Shown here in pieces: positions 81-5,387 of a stretch of DNA of 5,387 nucleotides. Position 1 is the first letter of the stretch, and every line of letters begins with the position of its first letter. Below the pieces are notes generated by a model that did no database searches, was not told the DNA's origin, and saw nothing but the letters and a program-made list of their open reading frames with translations. Both the position numbers and the translations under genes were made by a program. Location of the stretch: positions 1 through 5,387 of the forward strand of contig JAEVYW010000111.1 of the NCBI GenBank assembly GCA_023392555.1, given 5' to 3'. This DNA comes from Pseudomonadota bacterium (GTDB lineage Bacteria; Pseudomonadota; Alphaproteobacteria; Sphingomonadales; Sphingomonadaceae).

Positions 81-113
81 ATGATCGGCAAATGATCATG
101 AAATGATCGGCAA
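81..113. repeat. three tandem 11-bp direct repeats in the operon leader
   Basis: Three head-to-tail 11-bp units lie at 81-91, 92-102 and 103-113. The outer two are identical (ATGATCGGCAA). The middle one (ATGATCATGAA) differs only at unit positions 7-9. The array also contains an inverted repeat, CATGATC at 80-86 against GATCATG at 94-100. The period is close to one helical turn, so a protein could contact the same DNA face at each unit. The array ends 58 bases before the lipoprotein start, which suits an operator for the downstream operon, but no known regulator consensus (for example a Fur box) was recognised. The repeat is read directly; a regulatory role is inference. Confidence 0.6.
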
Positions 114-161
114 ACCTCCATCGCCAAGCGGGCGCCGCCACTGTCCCTACTTGCAAGCGAT

Positions 162-171: not shown

Positions 172-1158
172 ATGCGCTCATCGATTGCGGCAATGTTGGC
201 AGCAACCGCGACATTCGCCGTCAGCGCCTGCGGCGGCGGAAGCAGCGGAGGCGGCGTTGGCGTGCAATCCACGCCGGTACCACCGACAGCACCGACGCCG
301 GCCGCGGCTCCGGTGACGATCTTCGCCTCACCAGCCCCGGGCGAATATGCGTCGATCGGGGCTTCGATCGCGGGACCCGGGGGAAATCTCGACGCCTACC
401 AGTCCAGCACCGACCGGTTCGGCCCCGTTTCCACGTCGCAGGCCGATCAGGCCCACGTCCGCTACACAACGGGCGGATATTATGAGGTGAAGCTCGCCGG
501 GGCCGATTGGGACCGCCTCGTACCCCACAAAGGGATGGTCACATCCGACCCGAACAACAATTACTTCCAACCGGCCGGCGTTCCGCAGAACTACGCTTAT
601 CTTGTCACGCGTAACTCCCGCACGCAGGGCTACAGTTTTTCGGAGCTGGGGGCCTGGGGTTCCGAGGCGCAGGGGCGCTGGGGGTACACCGCGTTCGGCG
701 CAGCAACTTCGCCAAACGGCGTTCCGACATCGGGTAGCGCGACCTTCAGCGGGGTCGTATCCGGAAGCACGGACGCAATGTCCGCCGACAACCTCTACGG
801 CGGCTACACGCCCATCCCGACCGACGGGTTCGTGACCCTCAATTTCGATTTCACGGCCGGCTCGCTGAACGGCCGATTGGACCTGTTCCTGCCGGACGGG
901 ATGAACCCCATCCCACTCGACAGTTTCGCGTTCACGCAGACGGTCTTCTCGCCGGGCAGCACCTCATATTCAGGGCGCTTCGACAGCCCGGAGACGGGCC
1001 AGAACTTCTTCCTCGGCCAGTTCACCGGACCAAACGCGCAGGAAACCATCGGTGCCTGGGCGGTCCCATTCCGGTTCGATCAACAGGGCGGATTCATCCA
1101 CGGCGACGGCCAGGTCCATCAGGCTTTCGGCGCCTGGGTCGCGAAGCGCGGCAACTGA
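172..1158 (+). CDS. TbpB-like surface lipoprotein (putative Slam cargo), copy 1
   Basis: This gene encodes a 328-residue predicted outer-membrane lipoprotein, probably displayed on the cell surface to bind a ligand that is not identifiable here. Residues 1-20 form a lipoprotein signal peptide: one Arg, an Ala-rich hydrophobic core and the lipobox VSAC, with Cys20 the lipidation site and the only cysteine. A Gly-rich then Pro/Ala-rich tether covers about 21-50. Residues 50-160 may be a handle-like domain. Residues 168-328 look like the beta-barrel of the transferrin-binding protein B family (TbpB_B_D): a first strand near TSGSATFSG (187-194), then VTLNFDFTAGSLNG (221-234), and the diagnostic GQFTGPNAQE (282-291), matching the family's G-x-F-Y-G-P-x-A-x-E pattern. 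The start at 172 is set by GGAGGA and by the signal peptide. The next gene is a paralogue 28 bases on, and a Slam gene follows it, the arrangement expected of a T11SS cargo. The family call is from motifs, not a profile search. A soluble haemophilin-type binder is less likely because of the lipobox. Confidence 0.85.
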   Translation: MRSSIAAMLAATATFAVSACGGGSSGGGVGVQSTPVPPTAPTPAAAPVTIFASPAPGEYASIGASIAGPGGNLDAYQSSTDRFGPVSTSQADQAHVRYTTGGYYEVKLAGADWDRLVPHKGMVTSDPNNNYFQPAGVPQNYAYLVTRNSRTQGYSFSELGAWGSEAQGRWGYTAFGAATSPNGVPTSGSATFSGVVSGSTDAMSADNLYGGYTPIPTDGFVTLNFDFTAGSLNGRLDLFLPDGMNPIPLDSFAFTQTVFSPGSTSYSGRFDSPETGQNFFLGQFTGPNAQETIGAWAVPFRFDQQGGFIHGDGQVHQAFGAWVAKRGN

Positions 1159-1186
1159 AAACCACCTCAGAAGCGGAGACACGAAC

Positions 1187-2122
1187 ATGCGTATGAACTT
1201 CGATGCCCTCATTATCGGGACGGCGACGGTAGCGCTCGCGGGGTGCGGTGGGGCTGGTGGTGGGGGCGTACAATCGATGCCCAACCCGATCACTGTGGCT
1301 CCGCCGCCGCCTTCCTCTCCGTCACCACCGCCATCACCGCCCCCCCTCCCGACGGGACCGATCGGGCTGCAAAGCAACGCACCCTTCGCAACGCAGGCAG
1401 CTCATCTGGACGCCTCTGGATTTAACATCGGGTCGGATGCCGTCGAGTTCAGTTACTCCTCTTCCGACAACGCCTACACAATCACGGTGCCCCACCATTC
1501 TCCCGGCCGTTTGGTAACTATCGGCGGCAATGGTTCGTACAACGCGACCGGCTGGACGCACCTTCAGGGCACCCATAACCAGGTTCAATCGCAACCAGTA
1601 TCAGCGCCGGTGACCGTCAATTTGGACTGGCCGGGATCTTCAACGCTCACCTACACGAGCGTTGGCGAGTGGGCCGAAGGCGGGGCCTTTCCCATCAACC
1701 GCGGCTTTTTCGCCTACGGCATCCCGACAACAGCCGGCGATGTGCCTGTATCAGGAGCTGGAACCTACACCGCGGCTGTTCGCGGAATGACCGAAGACGG
1801 CACGTTCGTTGGCGGCTCGGTTGCGCTGGCGTTCGATTTTGGCGCCGGCACGCTGAGCGGCGCGATGAAGCCGGTGCTTTATCCGTGGGATGCGTACCCG
1901 CTGGGCACCTATACGTTCCGCGACACCGTATATTCGTCAGGCTCTACGACATTTTCCGGCGCGTTCATCGTGCCCGGCTCCAATGCACCCTCCTCATTCA
2001 GCGGAAATTTCACCGGACCACAGGCGGCGGAATTCATGGCGAGCTGGCGCGCACCCTACGTCTATTCGAACGGCGGACCGGCGGGGACAATGGCCGGTGT
2101 CTGGACGGGCAAGAAGGACTGA
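1187..2122 (+). CDS. TbpB-like surface lipoprotein (putative Slam cargo), copy 2
   Basis: This gene encodes a 311-residue predicted surface lipoprotein, paralogous to the preceding product. The signal peptide ends in a near-ideal lipobox LAGC with Cys20, again the only cysteine. A Gly-rich stretch (21-27) leads into a markedly Pro-rich tether (about 33-58, runs of Pro with Ser). The C-terminal barrel is recognisable from DVPVSGAGTYTA (185-196), ALAFDFGAGTLSGAM (213-227), TVYSSGSTTFSG (247-258) and FSGNFTGPQAAEF (271-283). The last is the TbpB-type F-x-G-P-x-A-x-E element. The middle segments differ strongly from copy 1, so the two may bind different ligands or different faces of one ligand. 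GGAGA at 1175-1179 is seven bases before the ATG at 1187; a second ATG at 1193 is possible but less well spaced. Its stop lies two bases before the Slam ATG, which suggests translational coupling. Ligand unknown. Confidence 0.85.
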   Translation: MRMNFDALIIGTATVALAGCGGAGGGGVQSMPNPITVAPPPPSSPSPPPSPPPLPTGPIGLQSNAPFATQAAHLDASGFNIGSDAVEFSYSSSDNAYTITVPHHSPGRLVTIGGNGSYNATGWTHLQGTHNQVQSQPVSAPVTVNLDWPGSSTLTYTSVGEWAEGGAFPINRGFFAYGIPTTAGDVPVSGAGTYTAAVRGMTEDGTFVGGSVALAFDFGAGTLSGAMKPVLYPWDAYPLGTYTFRDTVYSSGSTTFSGAFIVPGSNAPSSFSGNFTGPQAAEFMASWRAPYVYSNGGPAGTMAGVWTGKKD

Positions 2123-2124
2123 CG

Positions 2125-3450
2125 ATGCTTCTGTTCGCAATGGGGACGGTCTTGGCTGGAACGGCGCCTGAACCATTGCCGCAACCTGCCGAGGCTGAAA
2201 TGGCCAGCCGCACGTTCCGGCTGACGTCGACAAACATGCTGGTATTCGCGGACAAAGCCGCTGCGAGTGGGCGTGTCGACGTCGCCGTGGACGCGTACCG
2301 GGCGCTTGCTCACGATGCAGATCCCCAGGTGCGCGCCGAGGCCCTTTACCGACACGGCAAGCTGCTTTTGAGTCTCGGAAAGCTGAAGGAAGCCGCCCTG
2401 CTTCTGAGGCGGGTGATCGATAGTCAGCCGACCGCAGCGCCGCCGCGGCTTGAGCTTGCTCGCGCTCTGCAGTTGATGGGCGACAATGACGGCGCATGGC
2501 GCGAGGTCCGTGCGGTCCAGGCTTCGGGATTGCCCATCCATGTTGCGCGGATGGTCGATCGCTATTCCGAGGCTCTGCGAGCTGCACGACCGTTCGGAAC
2601 ATCGATCCAGATCGCACTTGCTCCGGACTCCAACATCAACACTGCGACCCGTTCCGACACACTTGACACCGTGCTTGGCGATTTCGACATCGATGCTGAC
2701 AGCAAGGCCCGGTCGGGCGTGGGCGTTGCGCTGGCCGGCCAAGCGTATCGCCGCCTGCCGTTGAGCTCCGGCCACAGCTTGGTGGCGCGCGTAAGCGGTG
2801 CCGCGAACCTGTATCGAAAACCAGACTTCAATGACTTCACGCTCGACGCTGCGGCGGGCCCGGAGCTTCAGATCGGATCGAGCCGGGTCACGGTCGAGGC
2901 TGGGATCGCGCAGCGTTGGTACGGGATGAAGCCGGTGGTTCGCTCCACCCGGATTGCAGCGTCATTGAGGAAGCCCCTCGGCCGGCGCACCCAGCTGTCG
3001 GCCTCGGCCTCCATCGGTCGGCTCGATTACAAACTGAACGATCTACAGGACGGTACCTCGGTCAATGCGCGCTTAGGCGTCGAACGTGCCTTGTCCGCGA
3101 CGACCGGCATCGGCGTGAACCTATCCGCGGGGCGCCTTGCCGCCAGGGATCCGGCCTACTCGACACGCGACTGGCGGATAGGCGTGGTCGGCTGGCGCGA
3201 CATCGGCCGGGCGACGCTGACCGCCGAAGCCGAATACGGACGGCTGAAGGCAGATAACCGGCTTGCGCTGCTGCCCGAAGCTCGGGCGGACCGGTACAGC
3301 CGCTTGGCGATTGGAGCGTCGTTCCGTCAGCTCACCTTCGGTGGCTTCGCGCCGTTCACGCGGTTTGTCATCGAACGGAACCGAAGCACGGTCGAGTTCT
3401 ACGACTATCGCCGCCGCCGGTCGGAGGTCGGATTCAGCCGCGCCTTCTGA
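2125..3450 (+). CDS. Slam-family surface lipoprotein assembly modifier (DUF560, T11SS translocator)
   Basis: This gene encodes a 441-residue outer-membrane protein of the Slam family, whose characterised members (Neisseria Slam1 and Slam2) move TbpB-type lipoproteins to the outer leaflet. Residues 1-14 look like a short Sec signal with a hydrophobic core ending near AGTA, though it has no Lys or Arg at its N-terminus. Residues about 35-155 are helical with TPR-like spacing, clearest at [20 protein letters not shown] (71-90) followed by [18 protein letters not shown] (107-124). The typical Slam junction APDSNIN (166-172) opens the C-terminal barrel, which shows alternating amphipathic strands to the end. 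The terminal block [20 protein letters not shown] (417-436) followed by FSRAF, with terminal Phe, matches the family ending and the outer-membrane beta-signal. AAGGA at 2114-2118 is six bases before the ATG. It is slightly shorter than neisserial Slam proteins (about 490 residues, from memory). The adjacent lipoproteins are its likely cargo. Confidence 0.88.
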
Positions 3451-3511
3451 GGTTTCCGCAGAGCGGCAGTGGCAATTTCAACATCGCGACACCATATCGC
3501 GGTCAGCCGCG

Positions 3512-3539
3512 TTGACGATCAGCAGTGGCTCGTTACAAT
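3512..3539 (+). promoter_or_regulatory. sigma70-type promoter of uvrA
   Basis: TTGACG (3512-3517) and TACAAT (3534-3539) each match five of six consensus positions and are separated by 16 bases. The predicted transcription start is near 3545-3547, giving a leader of about 23 bases before the uvrA ATG. The -10 element ends just before the SOS box, so a bound repressor would cover the start site. Consensus match is seen; activity is inferred. Confidence 0.6.
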
Positions 3540-3541
3540 CA

Positions 3542-3556
3542 GAACATAAACGGAAC
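3542..3556. promoter_or_regulatory. LexA (SOS) box of alphaproteobacterial type before uvrA
   Basis: GAAC (3542-3545), seven bases, then GAAC (3553-3556) is an exact match to the direct-repeat LexA operator GAAC-N7-GAAC (GTTC-N7-GTTC on the other strand) known from alphaproteobacteria. It overlaps the predicted transcription start and ends 12 bases before the uvrA ATG. uvrA is a classic SOS gene, so LexA repression released by DNA damage is the expected control. The motif is seen directly; LexA binding is inference. Confidence 0.8.
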
Positions 3557-3568
3557 GAAATTCGGCCG

Positions 3569-5387
3569 ATGCTGACTCATATTTCTGTCCGCGGCGCGCG
3601 GGAGCACAATCTTAAAGCCGTCGACGTGGATATCCCGCGCGAGAGCCTGACGGTCATCACCGGCCTGTCCGGCTCGGGCAAATCCTCCCTCGCGTTCGAC
3701 ACCATCTATGCCGAAGGGCAGCGCCGCTACGTCGAGTCCCTCTCGGCCTATGCGCGCCAGTTCCTTGAGATGATGCAGAAGCCGGACGTCGAGCATATCG
3801 ACGGCCTGTCGCCTGCGATTTCGATCGAGCAGAAGACGACCTCGCGCAACCCGCGCTCGACGGTCGCTACGGTCACCGAGATCTACGACTACATGCGCCT
3901 TCTGTGGGCGCGCGTCGGCATCCCCTATTCGCCCGCGACGGGCCTTCCGATCGAGGCGCAGCAGGTCAGCCAGATGGTCGACCGCGTCATGTCGCTACCC
4001 GAAGGCTCGAGGCACTATCTGCTCGCGCCGGTCGTCCGCGGCCGGAAGGGCGAGTATCGCAAGGAGCTGGCCGAGTGGCAGAAGGCGGGCTTCACCCGCG
4101 TCCGCATCGACGGCGAATTCTACGACATCGAGGACGCGCCGGCGCTTGACAAGAAGTACAAGCACGACATCGAAGTCGTGGTGGACCGCGTCGTCGTCCG
4201 CGAGGGGATTGAGGCGCGGCTGGCGGACAGCTTCGAGACAGCGCTGAAGCTCGCCGAAGGCCTCGCCTTCCTCGACCCGGCCGATCCGCCCGCGGATGCC
4301 GAGCCTGCGCCGAAGGGCATGAAGCTCGACTACGCCCCGCCCGGCCGCATCCTGTTCAGCGAGAAGTTTGCCTGCCCCGTCAGCGGCTTCACCATCGCCG
4401 AGATCGAGCCGCGCCTGTTCAGCTTCAACGCGCCGCAGGGCGCCTGCCCCGCCTGCGACGGCCTCGGCGAAAAGCTGGTGTTCGACGAGGACCTCGTCGT
4501 CCCCAACCACGCTTTGTCGATCAAGAAGGGCGCGGTCGTGCCCTGGGCCAAGTCCAATCCGCCCTCGCCTTATTACATGCAGGTGCTGAGCTCGCTCGCC
4601 CGCGCCTACGACTTCGACCTCGAAACGCCGTGGGGCGAGCTGCCCGAGCAGGCGCAGGACGTCATCCTGCACGGCACCAAGGGCCGCCCGGTCACGCTGC
4701 GCTTCATCGACGGCCGCAAGTCGTACGAGGTGAAGAAGCCGTTCGAAGGCGTCATCGGCAACCTCAACCGCCGCATGATGCAGACCGAAAGCGCGTGGAT
4801 GCGCGAGGAGCTGTCGCGCTACCAGGCGAGTCGTCCGTGCGAAGTCTGTCACGGCGCCCGCCTCAAGCCCGAGGCGCTCAGCGTGAAGATCGCCGGCGAG
4901 GACATTTCGCTCTCCACCCGCCGCTCGGTCGAGGACGCCTACAATTGGTTCGGCAGCCTCGAGGAAAAGCTCAACCCGACCCAGCGGGAAATCGCGCACG
5001 TCATCCTCAAGGAGATCAACGCGCGCCTCGGCTTCCTCCACAATGTCGGGCTCGACTATCTCCATCTCGACCGCACCAGCGGGACGCTGAGCGGCGGCGA
5101 AAGCCAGCGCATCCGCCTTGCGTCGCAGATCGGCTCAGGCCTGTCGGGCGTGCTCTACGTCCTCGACGAACCGTCGATCGGCCTTCATCAGAAGGACAAC
5201 GACCGCCTGCTCGAAACGCTGAAGCGGCTAAAGTCGCTCGGCAATACCGTGCTCGTCGTCGAACATGACGAGGATGCGATCCGCACCGCCGACCATGTCA
5301 TCGACATGGGTCCGGGCGCGGGCGTCCACGGCGGCGAGATCGTCTGCGCCGGAACGCTCGACGAGCTGCTCGCGTGCGAGACCAGCA
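3569..5387 (+). CDS. uvrA: UvrA, excinuclease ABC subunit A (3' end outside the window)
   Basis: UvrA is the dimeric ABC ATPase that, with UvrB, scans DNA and recognises bulky lesions in nucleotide excision repair in the cytoplasm. The first 606 residues are visible, out of roughly 950 expected. Features in order: Walker [10 protein letters not shown] (32-40, Lys38); the highly conserved [17 protein letters not shown] block (about 50-66); the UvrB-binding and insertion domains; a degenerate zinc site FACPVSG (Cys269, Ser272) with CPAC (293-296); a second CxxC in RPCEVCHG (Cys424, Cys427); the ABC signature LSGGESQ (507-513); Walker [12 protein letters not shown] with Asp533-Glu534; and the switch histidine in VEHDEDA (His566). 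The second ATPase half lies beyond the edge. The start at 3569 aligns with other UvrA N-termini (VRGAREHNL follows). No good Shine-Dalgarno is visible; GGAACGA at 3552-3558 is weak and distant. Transcription should be SOS-controlled through the box at 3542-3556. The frame is intact throughout. Confidence 0.97.

Follow-up and report, generated by a model that had tools for sequence, protein, structure and literature searches.

The stretch of DNA considered here, hereafter the window, spans 5,387 nucleotides from a bacterium of the Sphingomonadaceae (assembly GCA_023392555.1, contig JAEVYW010000111.1) and carries genes for two predicted lipoproteins and a Slam-family outer membrane protein, preceded by a tandem 11-bp repeat. 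From open reading frame (ORF) reading of the window, the genes form a packed operon in the order cargo1, cargo2, Slam gene, with gaps of 28 and 2 bases. The features of the window are as follows.

81 to 124, plus strand: predicted operator made of tandem 11-bp units (35.3 bits at 92-124; next best match in the window, 12.9 bits).
172 to 1158, plus strand: cargo1, a predicted lipoprotein with one handle-plus-barrel lobe of the TbpB fold (sub-cut-off PF01298 match, 193 homologs, structure model).
1187 to 2122, plus strand: cargo2, a paralogous predicted lipoprotein with one TbpB-fold lobe (sub-cut-off slam_lipo match, 159 homologs, structure model).
2125 to 3450, plus strand: Slam, or type 11 secretion, outer membrane protein with a TPR part followed by a barrel (PF04575, 66.7 bits, cut-off 22).
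3569 to 5387, plus strand: uvrA, truncated by the window end, a neighbour outside the system (TIGR00630, 806 bits, cut-off 729.8).

A first-pass annotation made from the sequence alone had described a Slam-type operon of a probable sphingomonad, with genes for two lipoproteins that have TbpB-like barrels, and that description is upheld by the PF04575 match, the structure models, the paralogy of the cargos and the Slam tree; the ORFs, gaps, lipoboxes, FTGP motifs and terminal Phe are likewise as it gave them. The Slam protein has 441 residues, ends in SRAF and matches PF04575 over residues 163-441 (E-value 3.3e-18), so the profile search proposed for 2125-3450 came out well over its cut-off. 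The TPR part reaches the TPR_19 cut-off (26.3 bits against 25), and the Slam-specific TPR model PF24575 stays below its own (20.5 bits against 35.2). The N-terminus of the protein (2125-2211) has no Lys or Arg before residue 29, which is unusual for a signal peptide, and the start codon may need checking.

Cargo1 (328 residues, lipobox VSAC, FTGP close to the C-terminus) and cargo2 (311 residues, lipobox LAGC, FTGP) are paralogs that share 34% identity over 155 residues (E-value 2e-17). The annotation had also proposed a search with PF01298 (TbpB_B_D), in which cargo1 scores 21.8 bits (E-value 2.8e-4) and cargo2 14.1 bits, both under the 26-bit cut-off. The NCBIfam model slam_lipo (NF041636) gives cargo2 24.3 bits against a cut-off of 80, with cargo1 absent from the matches, and no TbpB or Slam chain was among the matches listed from PDB sequence searches with cargo1, cargo2 and Slam. 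Some homologs of each cargo do carry PF01298. Structure prediction, the other check that had been suggested for the cargos, bore out the assignment, as the models are confident (pLDDT 91.3 and 90.7), match the folds of TbpB, HpuA, NHBA, fHbp and hemophilin, and have the TbpB-type handle-barrel fold; a second comparison, with VIA-align, covered cargo1 alone. Each model contains a single lobe and thus lacks the two-lobe arrangement of TbpB. As to transferrin or lactoferrin as a candidate ligand, what the cargos have in common with TbpB is the fold alone.

Among named species, the closest relatives of the Slam protein are encoded by Sphingomonas segetis (64% over the matched part), S. rhizophila (47%) and S. 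gilva (45%), which makes a sphingomonad the likely source. Matches to it were found in 96 of 298 genomes of the family and in 22 of 71 genomes of the S. segetis genus, 16 of the latter with an E-value below 1e-50. Sixty stretches from the family search and 20 from the genus search were annotated, and a Slam tree was built from 75 sequences, leaving out L003 (a duplicate of L046), the broken L164 and pieces shorter than 300 residues such as L092. The window falls within a clade of 16 rows (support 90/96, not starred). Cargos of at least 550 residues occur in 26 of 60 loci outside this clade versus one of 16 clade loci (counting L164 and not the window), and in that single case, L164, the ORF is over-extended and matches one lobe only. 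No cargo lies within the stretch in seven of the 60 non-clade and three of the 16 clade loci, and a cargo gene is on the strand of the Slam gene in 66 of 76 stretches. Two cargos in tandem directly before Slam, as in the window, are found in L161 and L164 and are one arrangement among several; L170 has three cargos followed by a Slam piece at the contig end. In L167 (11676) and L168 (8328), non-clade Slam genes adjoin genes for cargo-like proteins which by reading have ordinary non-lipid signal peptides and are perhaps soluble clients.

The tandem repeat, which the first-pass annotation did not mention, consists of the units ATGATCGGCAA, ATGATCATGAA and ATGATCGGCAA at positions 81-113, with a diverged fourth unit at 114-124. 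The repeat ends 47 bp before the start codon of cargo1, and the corresponding distance is 48-131 bp in 12 genes of relatives. A motif search seeded with the window's own repeat gave the consensus ATCATCGGCAA-ATCATCGGCAG-ATCATCATCGC from 25 upstream regions, 21 of which reach 25 bits or more; with 20 base shuffles per region, the highest score was never above 6.8 bits. When each genome was left out in turn, a site of at least 14.3 bits was kept in 23 of the 25 regions or their preceding 35 bp and was the top score of the whole locus in 17; in L160, L161, L165 and L172 the higher-scoring matches are other copies of the repeat in the same stretch. The 35.3 bits of the window repeat come from a matrix that was not trained on the window, within a motif search that was itself window-seeded. 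The repeat is present in the 15 related Slam loci of the window's clade and absent from the 60 other Slam loci. On the Slam tree, possession of a site maps to a single change. A scan of 1.54 Mb found 53 partly overlapping matches of at least 16 bits, all in window-like or cargo-paralog loci, and 0.97 Mb of shuffled sequence gave one. The site is not always directly before the cargo: L001 has it on the downstream side of Slam, and L040 and L048 have it immediately next to the regulator gene, about 0.5 and 1.3 kb ahead of the cargo.

The regulator and a TonB-dependent receptor recur in the relatives of the window. A neighbourhood survey for linked receptors, as the annotation had recommended, revealed a TonB-dependent receptor of one family, scoring over 400 bits, no more than about 10 kb away in 12 of the 15 clade relatives and in none of the 60 other loci; the clade relatives without it in the stretch are L001, where the contig ends, L156 and L159. 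Clustering of the proteins of 15 window-like loci (L164 included, L001 and the window not) placed Slam in 15 loci, a winged-helix/TPR protein in 13, a cargo-type cluster, which includes a few antisense ORFs, in 13, and the receptor in 12. Most often the receptor comes first, followed by the convergent regulator and then, divergently, by cargo(s) and Slam. Receptor and regulator converge in 11 of these 12 loci and share one strand in L065. In L002 and L039, which have no cargo, Slam takes the cargo's place. Counted by receptor, a convergent regulator entry lies at the end of 13 of 15. The three regulators that were tested have a PF00486 winged helix and TPR repeats over the cut-off, with a hydrophobic segment between the two. 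An RR pair, mostly as SRR, directly precedes this segment in all 23 aligned regulators, for example in L002, L039, L157, L160, L217 and L222. The pair resembles the twin-arginine signal anchor, and judged from sequence the TPR part of the regulator would be a substrate of the twin-arginine translocation (Tat) pathway. Repeats spaced by 11 bp have the geometry of PhoB/OmpR-type sites, and the spacing of the window repeat therefore suits a PF00486 protein. NCBIfam receptor names stayed below their cut-offs for all four receptors tested (three of the receptor family and the one from S. gilva), and for that reason no ligand is named here. In the 71 genomes, the receptor is found in 15 and Slam (E-value below 1e-50) in 16, with both in 13, the receptor alone in two and Slam alone in three (Fisher p 9e-10, relatedness ignored); in this count the Slam of G332 comes from outside the clade. 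One of the relatives, genome G329, has damaged loci: in L164 (8721-10032) and L206 (8385-10438), its Slam, regulator and receptor genes are each broken over several frames, which reflects either decay or assembly error.

The distribution of the repeat extends beyond Slam loci. A search of whole genomes with an IUPAC pattern, allowing up to two mismatches, found 36 sites in 16 of the 71 genomes, and the reversed pattern found none. Site and receptor occur together in 14 of these genomes, the receptor alone in one, the site alone in two and neither in 54 (p 7e-12); in the 298 family genomes the corresponding numbers are 6, 4, 4 and 284 (p 5e-8). Relatedness is again ignored in both tests, and the four family sites without a receptor may be due to chance. 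Of 27 regulator entries, 17 have a site no more than 350 bp from their 5' end, where 0.004 would be expected, as do 13 of 20 cargo entries and two of 11 Slam entries. In 20 stretches around further sites, a regulator gene starts beside the site in 10. The gene across from the site, or alone with it, encodes a cargo (L211, L214), an RTX protein (L207, L219, L221 and L224; less surely L209; in the opposite sense in L218), a PD40 beta-propeller (L206, L212, L222), a PEP-CTERM protein (L217) or an FG-GAP protein (L215), and the remaining partners are small or unassigned ORFs. These assignments come from family searches for L206, L207, L209, L212, L215, L216, L217, L219 and L222 and from reading for the other partners. 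In L160 and L165, the site is followed by a PEP-CTERM gene and then the receptor gene. In L172 (6801-12718) of S. rhizophila, four cargo genes, each preceded by a copy of the repeat, lie about 200 kb from the Slam gene, and the Slam gene's own locus has no cargo.

Taken with the gene content of the window, these patterns make it probable that its lipoproteins are among several outputs of a common surface-protein regulon and are not a stand-alone device. In the model that we favour, Slam would flip both single-lobe lipoproteins to the cell surface. The tandem repeat would be the binding site of a winged-helix/TPR regulator that is predicted to be anchored in the membrane by the segment after the RR pair; on sensing some cue with its TPR part, predicted to be periplasmic, the regulator would activate transcription. 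The lipoproteins could then bind a ligand and pass it on to the receptor, in the way that TbpB supplies TbpA. The model as a whole, comprising Slam export, the repeat as the regulator's operator and the pairing of that regulator with a TonB-dependent receptor in relatives, seems to us somewhat better than an even proposition, with export and the shared operator as its firmer parts. The ligand hand-off is close to evenly balanced with doubt slightly ahead.

Several observations weigh against this model. No regulator or receptor gene is contained in the window, and no site was found up to 350 bp from the 5' end of any of the 15 receptor genes. Slam and receptor are not seen in one locus in five genomes that have both (G001, G303, G308, G329 and G332), and in G328 and G363 the receptor/regulator pair occurs without a Slam match, beside RTX and beta-propeller genes. 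In leave-one-genome-out scoring, L170 and L174 have no repeat site, and the site in L156 is weak, at 14.3 bits versus 14.7 in the best non-clade locus. The first-pass annotation had pointed out that no TonB-dependent receptor adjoins the operon. There is indeed none in the window, but this reflects the window edge, as only 171 bp precede cargo1. Inspection by eye of the six frames of bases 1-171 found no likeness to the N-termini of the relatives' regulators or to LigT C-termini. In the genome of the window, the receptor/regulator pair most likely lies just upstream or at a distance with its own repeat, as in G329. That genome has the cargo1 closest to the window's in the S. segetis genus (62%), in a cargo-cargo-Slam locus that lacks the pair, and its receptor and regulator genes are some 680 kb away in the assembly with a site of their own.

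Other explanations account for parts of these data. The receptor/regulator pair might act solely as a sensor. The Slam lipoproteins would then be produced in response and serve at the surface or in attachment, as would the RTX, PEP-CTERM and beta-propeller proteins encoded behind the same repeat, and the lipoproteins would deliver nothing to the receptor. Different genes can stand opposite the repeat (RTX in L207 and L219, PD40 beta-propeller in L206 and L222, PEP-CTERM in L217), and solo cargos with a repeat and no receptor beside them are found in L172, L173 and L175. The exchangeable partners suggest a control unit with several outputs, and a sensor-only role for the pair therefore stays a serious rival. 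We nonetheless regard it as unlikely, given that the cargo fold is that of known ligand-capture proteins and that 12 of 15 clade relatives have the receptor in the same locus. A related and tentative idea, somewhat more apt to fail than to hold, is that the pair of TonB-dependent receptor and Tat-anchored regulator is a portable plug-in switch, whose tandem 11-bp operator would drive whichever exported-protein gene faces it. Several export routes would then obey one outer-membrane cue, with Slam lipoproteins as the output here and RTX, PEP-CTERM or beta-propeller proteins in sister genomes.

The first-pass annotation had proposed that the operon is a self-contained surface display system; on this reading, repeat, receptor and regulator would be neighbours by coincidence in the relatives. 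The window, which shows cargos and Slam only, fits such a proposal, as do the clade relatives L001, L156 and L159 with no receptor in the stretch. Set against it are the behaviour of the repeat as a one-change trait on the Slam tree, its tracking of the receptor across both genome sets, and the fact that clade loci share the repeat with other exported-protein genes and mostly lie within about 10 kb of a receptor; self-containment is thus unlikely, and mere coincidence of the neighbours would be quite improbable. It would be more surprising still if neither lipoprotein were a Slam client, both being periplasmic or reaching the surface by another route while Slam serves other cargo. The unmet curated cut-offs of TbpB_B_D and slam_lipo would be in keeping with this, as would the distance of cargo genes from Slam in some genomes (L172, L173, L175), but the fold matches to known Slam clients, the PF01298 domains in homologs of both cargos and the prevailing location of cargo genes on the Slam strand all speak for export by Slam.

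Sphingomonad Slam loci are already known from bioinformatics. Subcluster 1C of the type XI secretion systems consists of DUF560 proteins, largely from environmentally isolated Sphingomonadaceae, and according to the available part of the source had no previously characterised representatives (mBio 2021, PMC8406197). The window Slam, as a DUF560/PF04575 protein of a sphingomonad, agrees with 1C in protein family and host group only; the repeat, regulator and receptor family go unmentioned for 1C in the available part of that paper. "Sphingomonas surface proteins" have been described as predicted T11SS cargo and, as far as the accessible text of that study goes, combine TbpB-type barrels with a Pro-rich N-terminal part and are encoded beside a sphingomonad T11SS (Microb Genom 2025, PMC12282271). 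They have several barrels per protein, whereas the window encodes two separate proteins with one lobe each; outside the clade, cargo with more than one barrel is common among the loci examined here, to judge from the 26 of 60 with long cargos. The handle-plus-barrel fold, the Slam-family protein and the TonB-dependent receptor of the window's relatives recall TbpB/TbpA and hemophilin/HrpC. TbpB differs in having two lobes and hemophilin in being soluble, whereas the window cargos have lipoboxes and are predicted to be lipidated. The relatives' regulator is similar to one-component regulators of the CadC/ToxR type in its PF00486 domain, TPR part and intervening hydrophobic segment, and differs from them in the twin-arginine-like RR pair. 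A limited search of the open literature turned up no publication on either the repeat or the regulator. As far as these partly consulted sources go, what is new here is the wiring, namely the repeat, the regulator and the receptor. Together these make up a testable regulon with a candidate partner receptor, and further clients could be found by operator and not by protein similarity. If several export routes do answer to one receptor-linked regulator, this would be a new way for bacteria to remodel their surface.

A sister Slam locus appears to be under different control. In L003 (2121-7949) of S. gilva, a receptor gene with FecR- and FecI-like genes, named by reading, is divergent from genes for a 594-residue double-barrel lipoprotein and Slam, and uvrA lies downstream. 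As a possible partner of the system uvrA was rejected and is taken as a neighbour, since it lies on the Slam strand no more than 9 kb downstream in three of 16 clade loci (L164 counted, the window not) versus 15 of the 60 others. A terminator was searched for between Slam and uvrA, and none was convincing. Within this spacer (3451-3568), a promoter-like TTGACG-16-TACAAT occurs at 3512-3539 ahead of uvrA, and uvrA is therefore probably its own transcription unit; shuffled sequences give about as many such matches. The presence of uvrA after Slam in 18 of 76 loci overall suggests an old chromosomal site.

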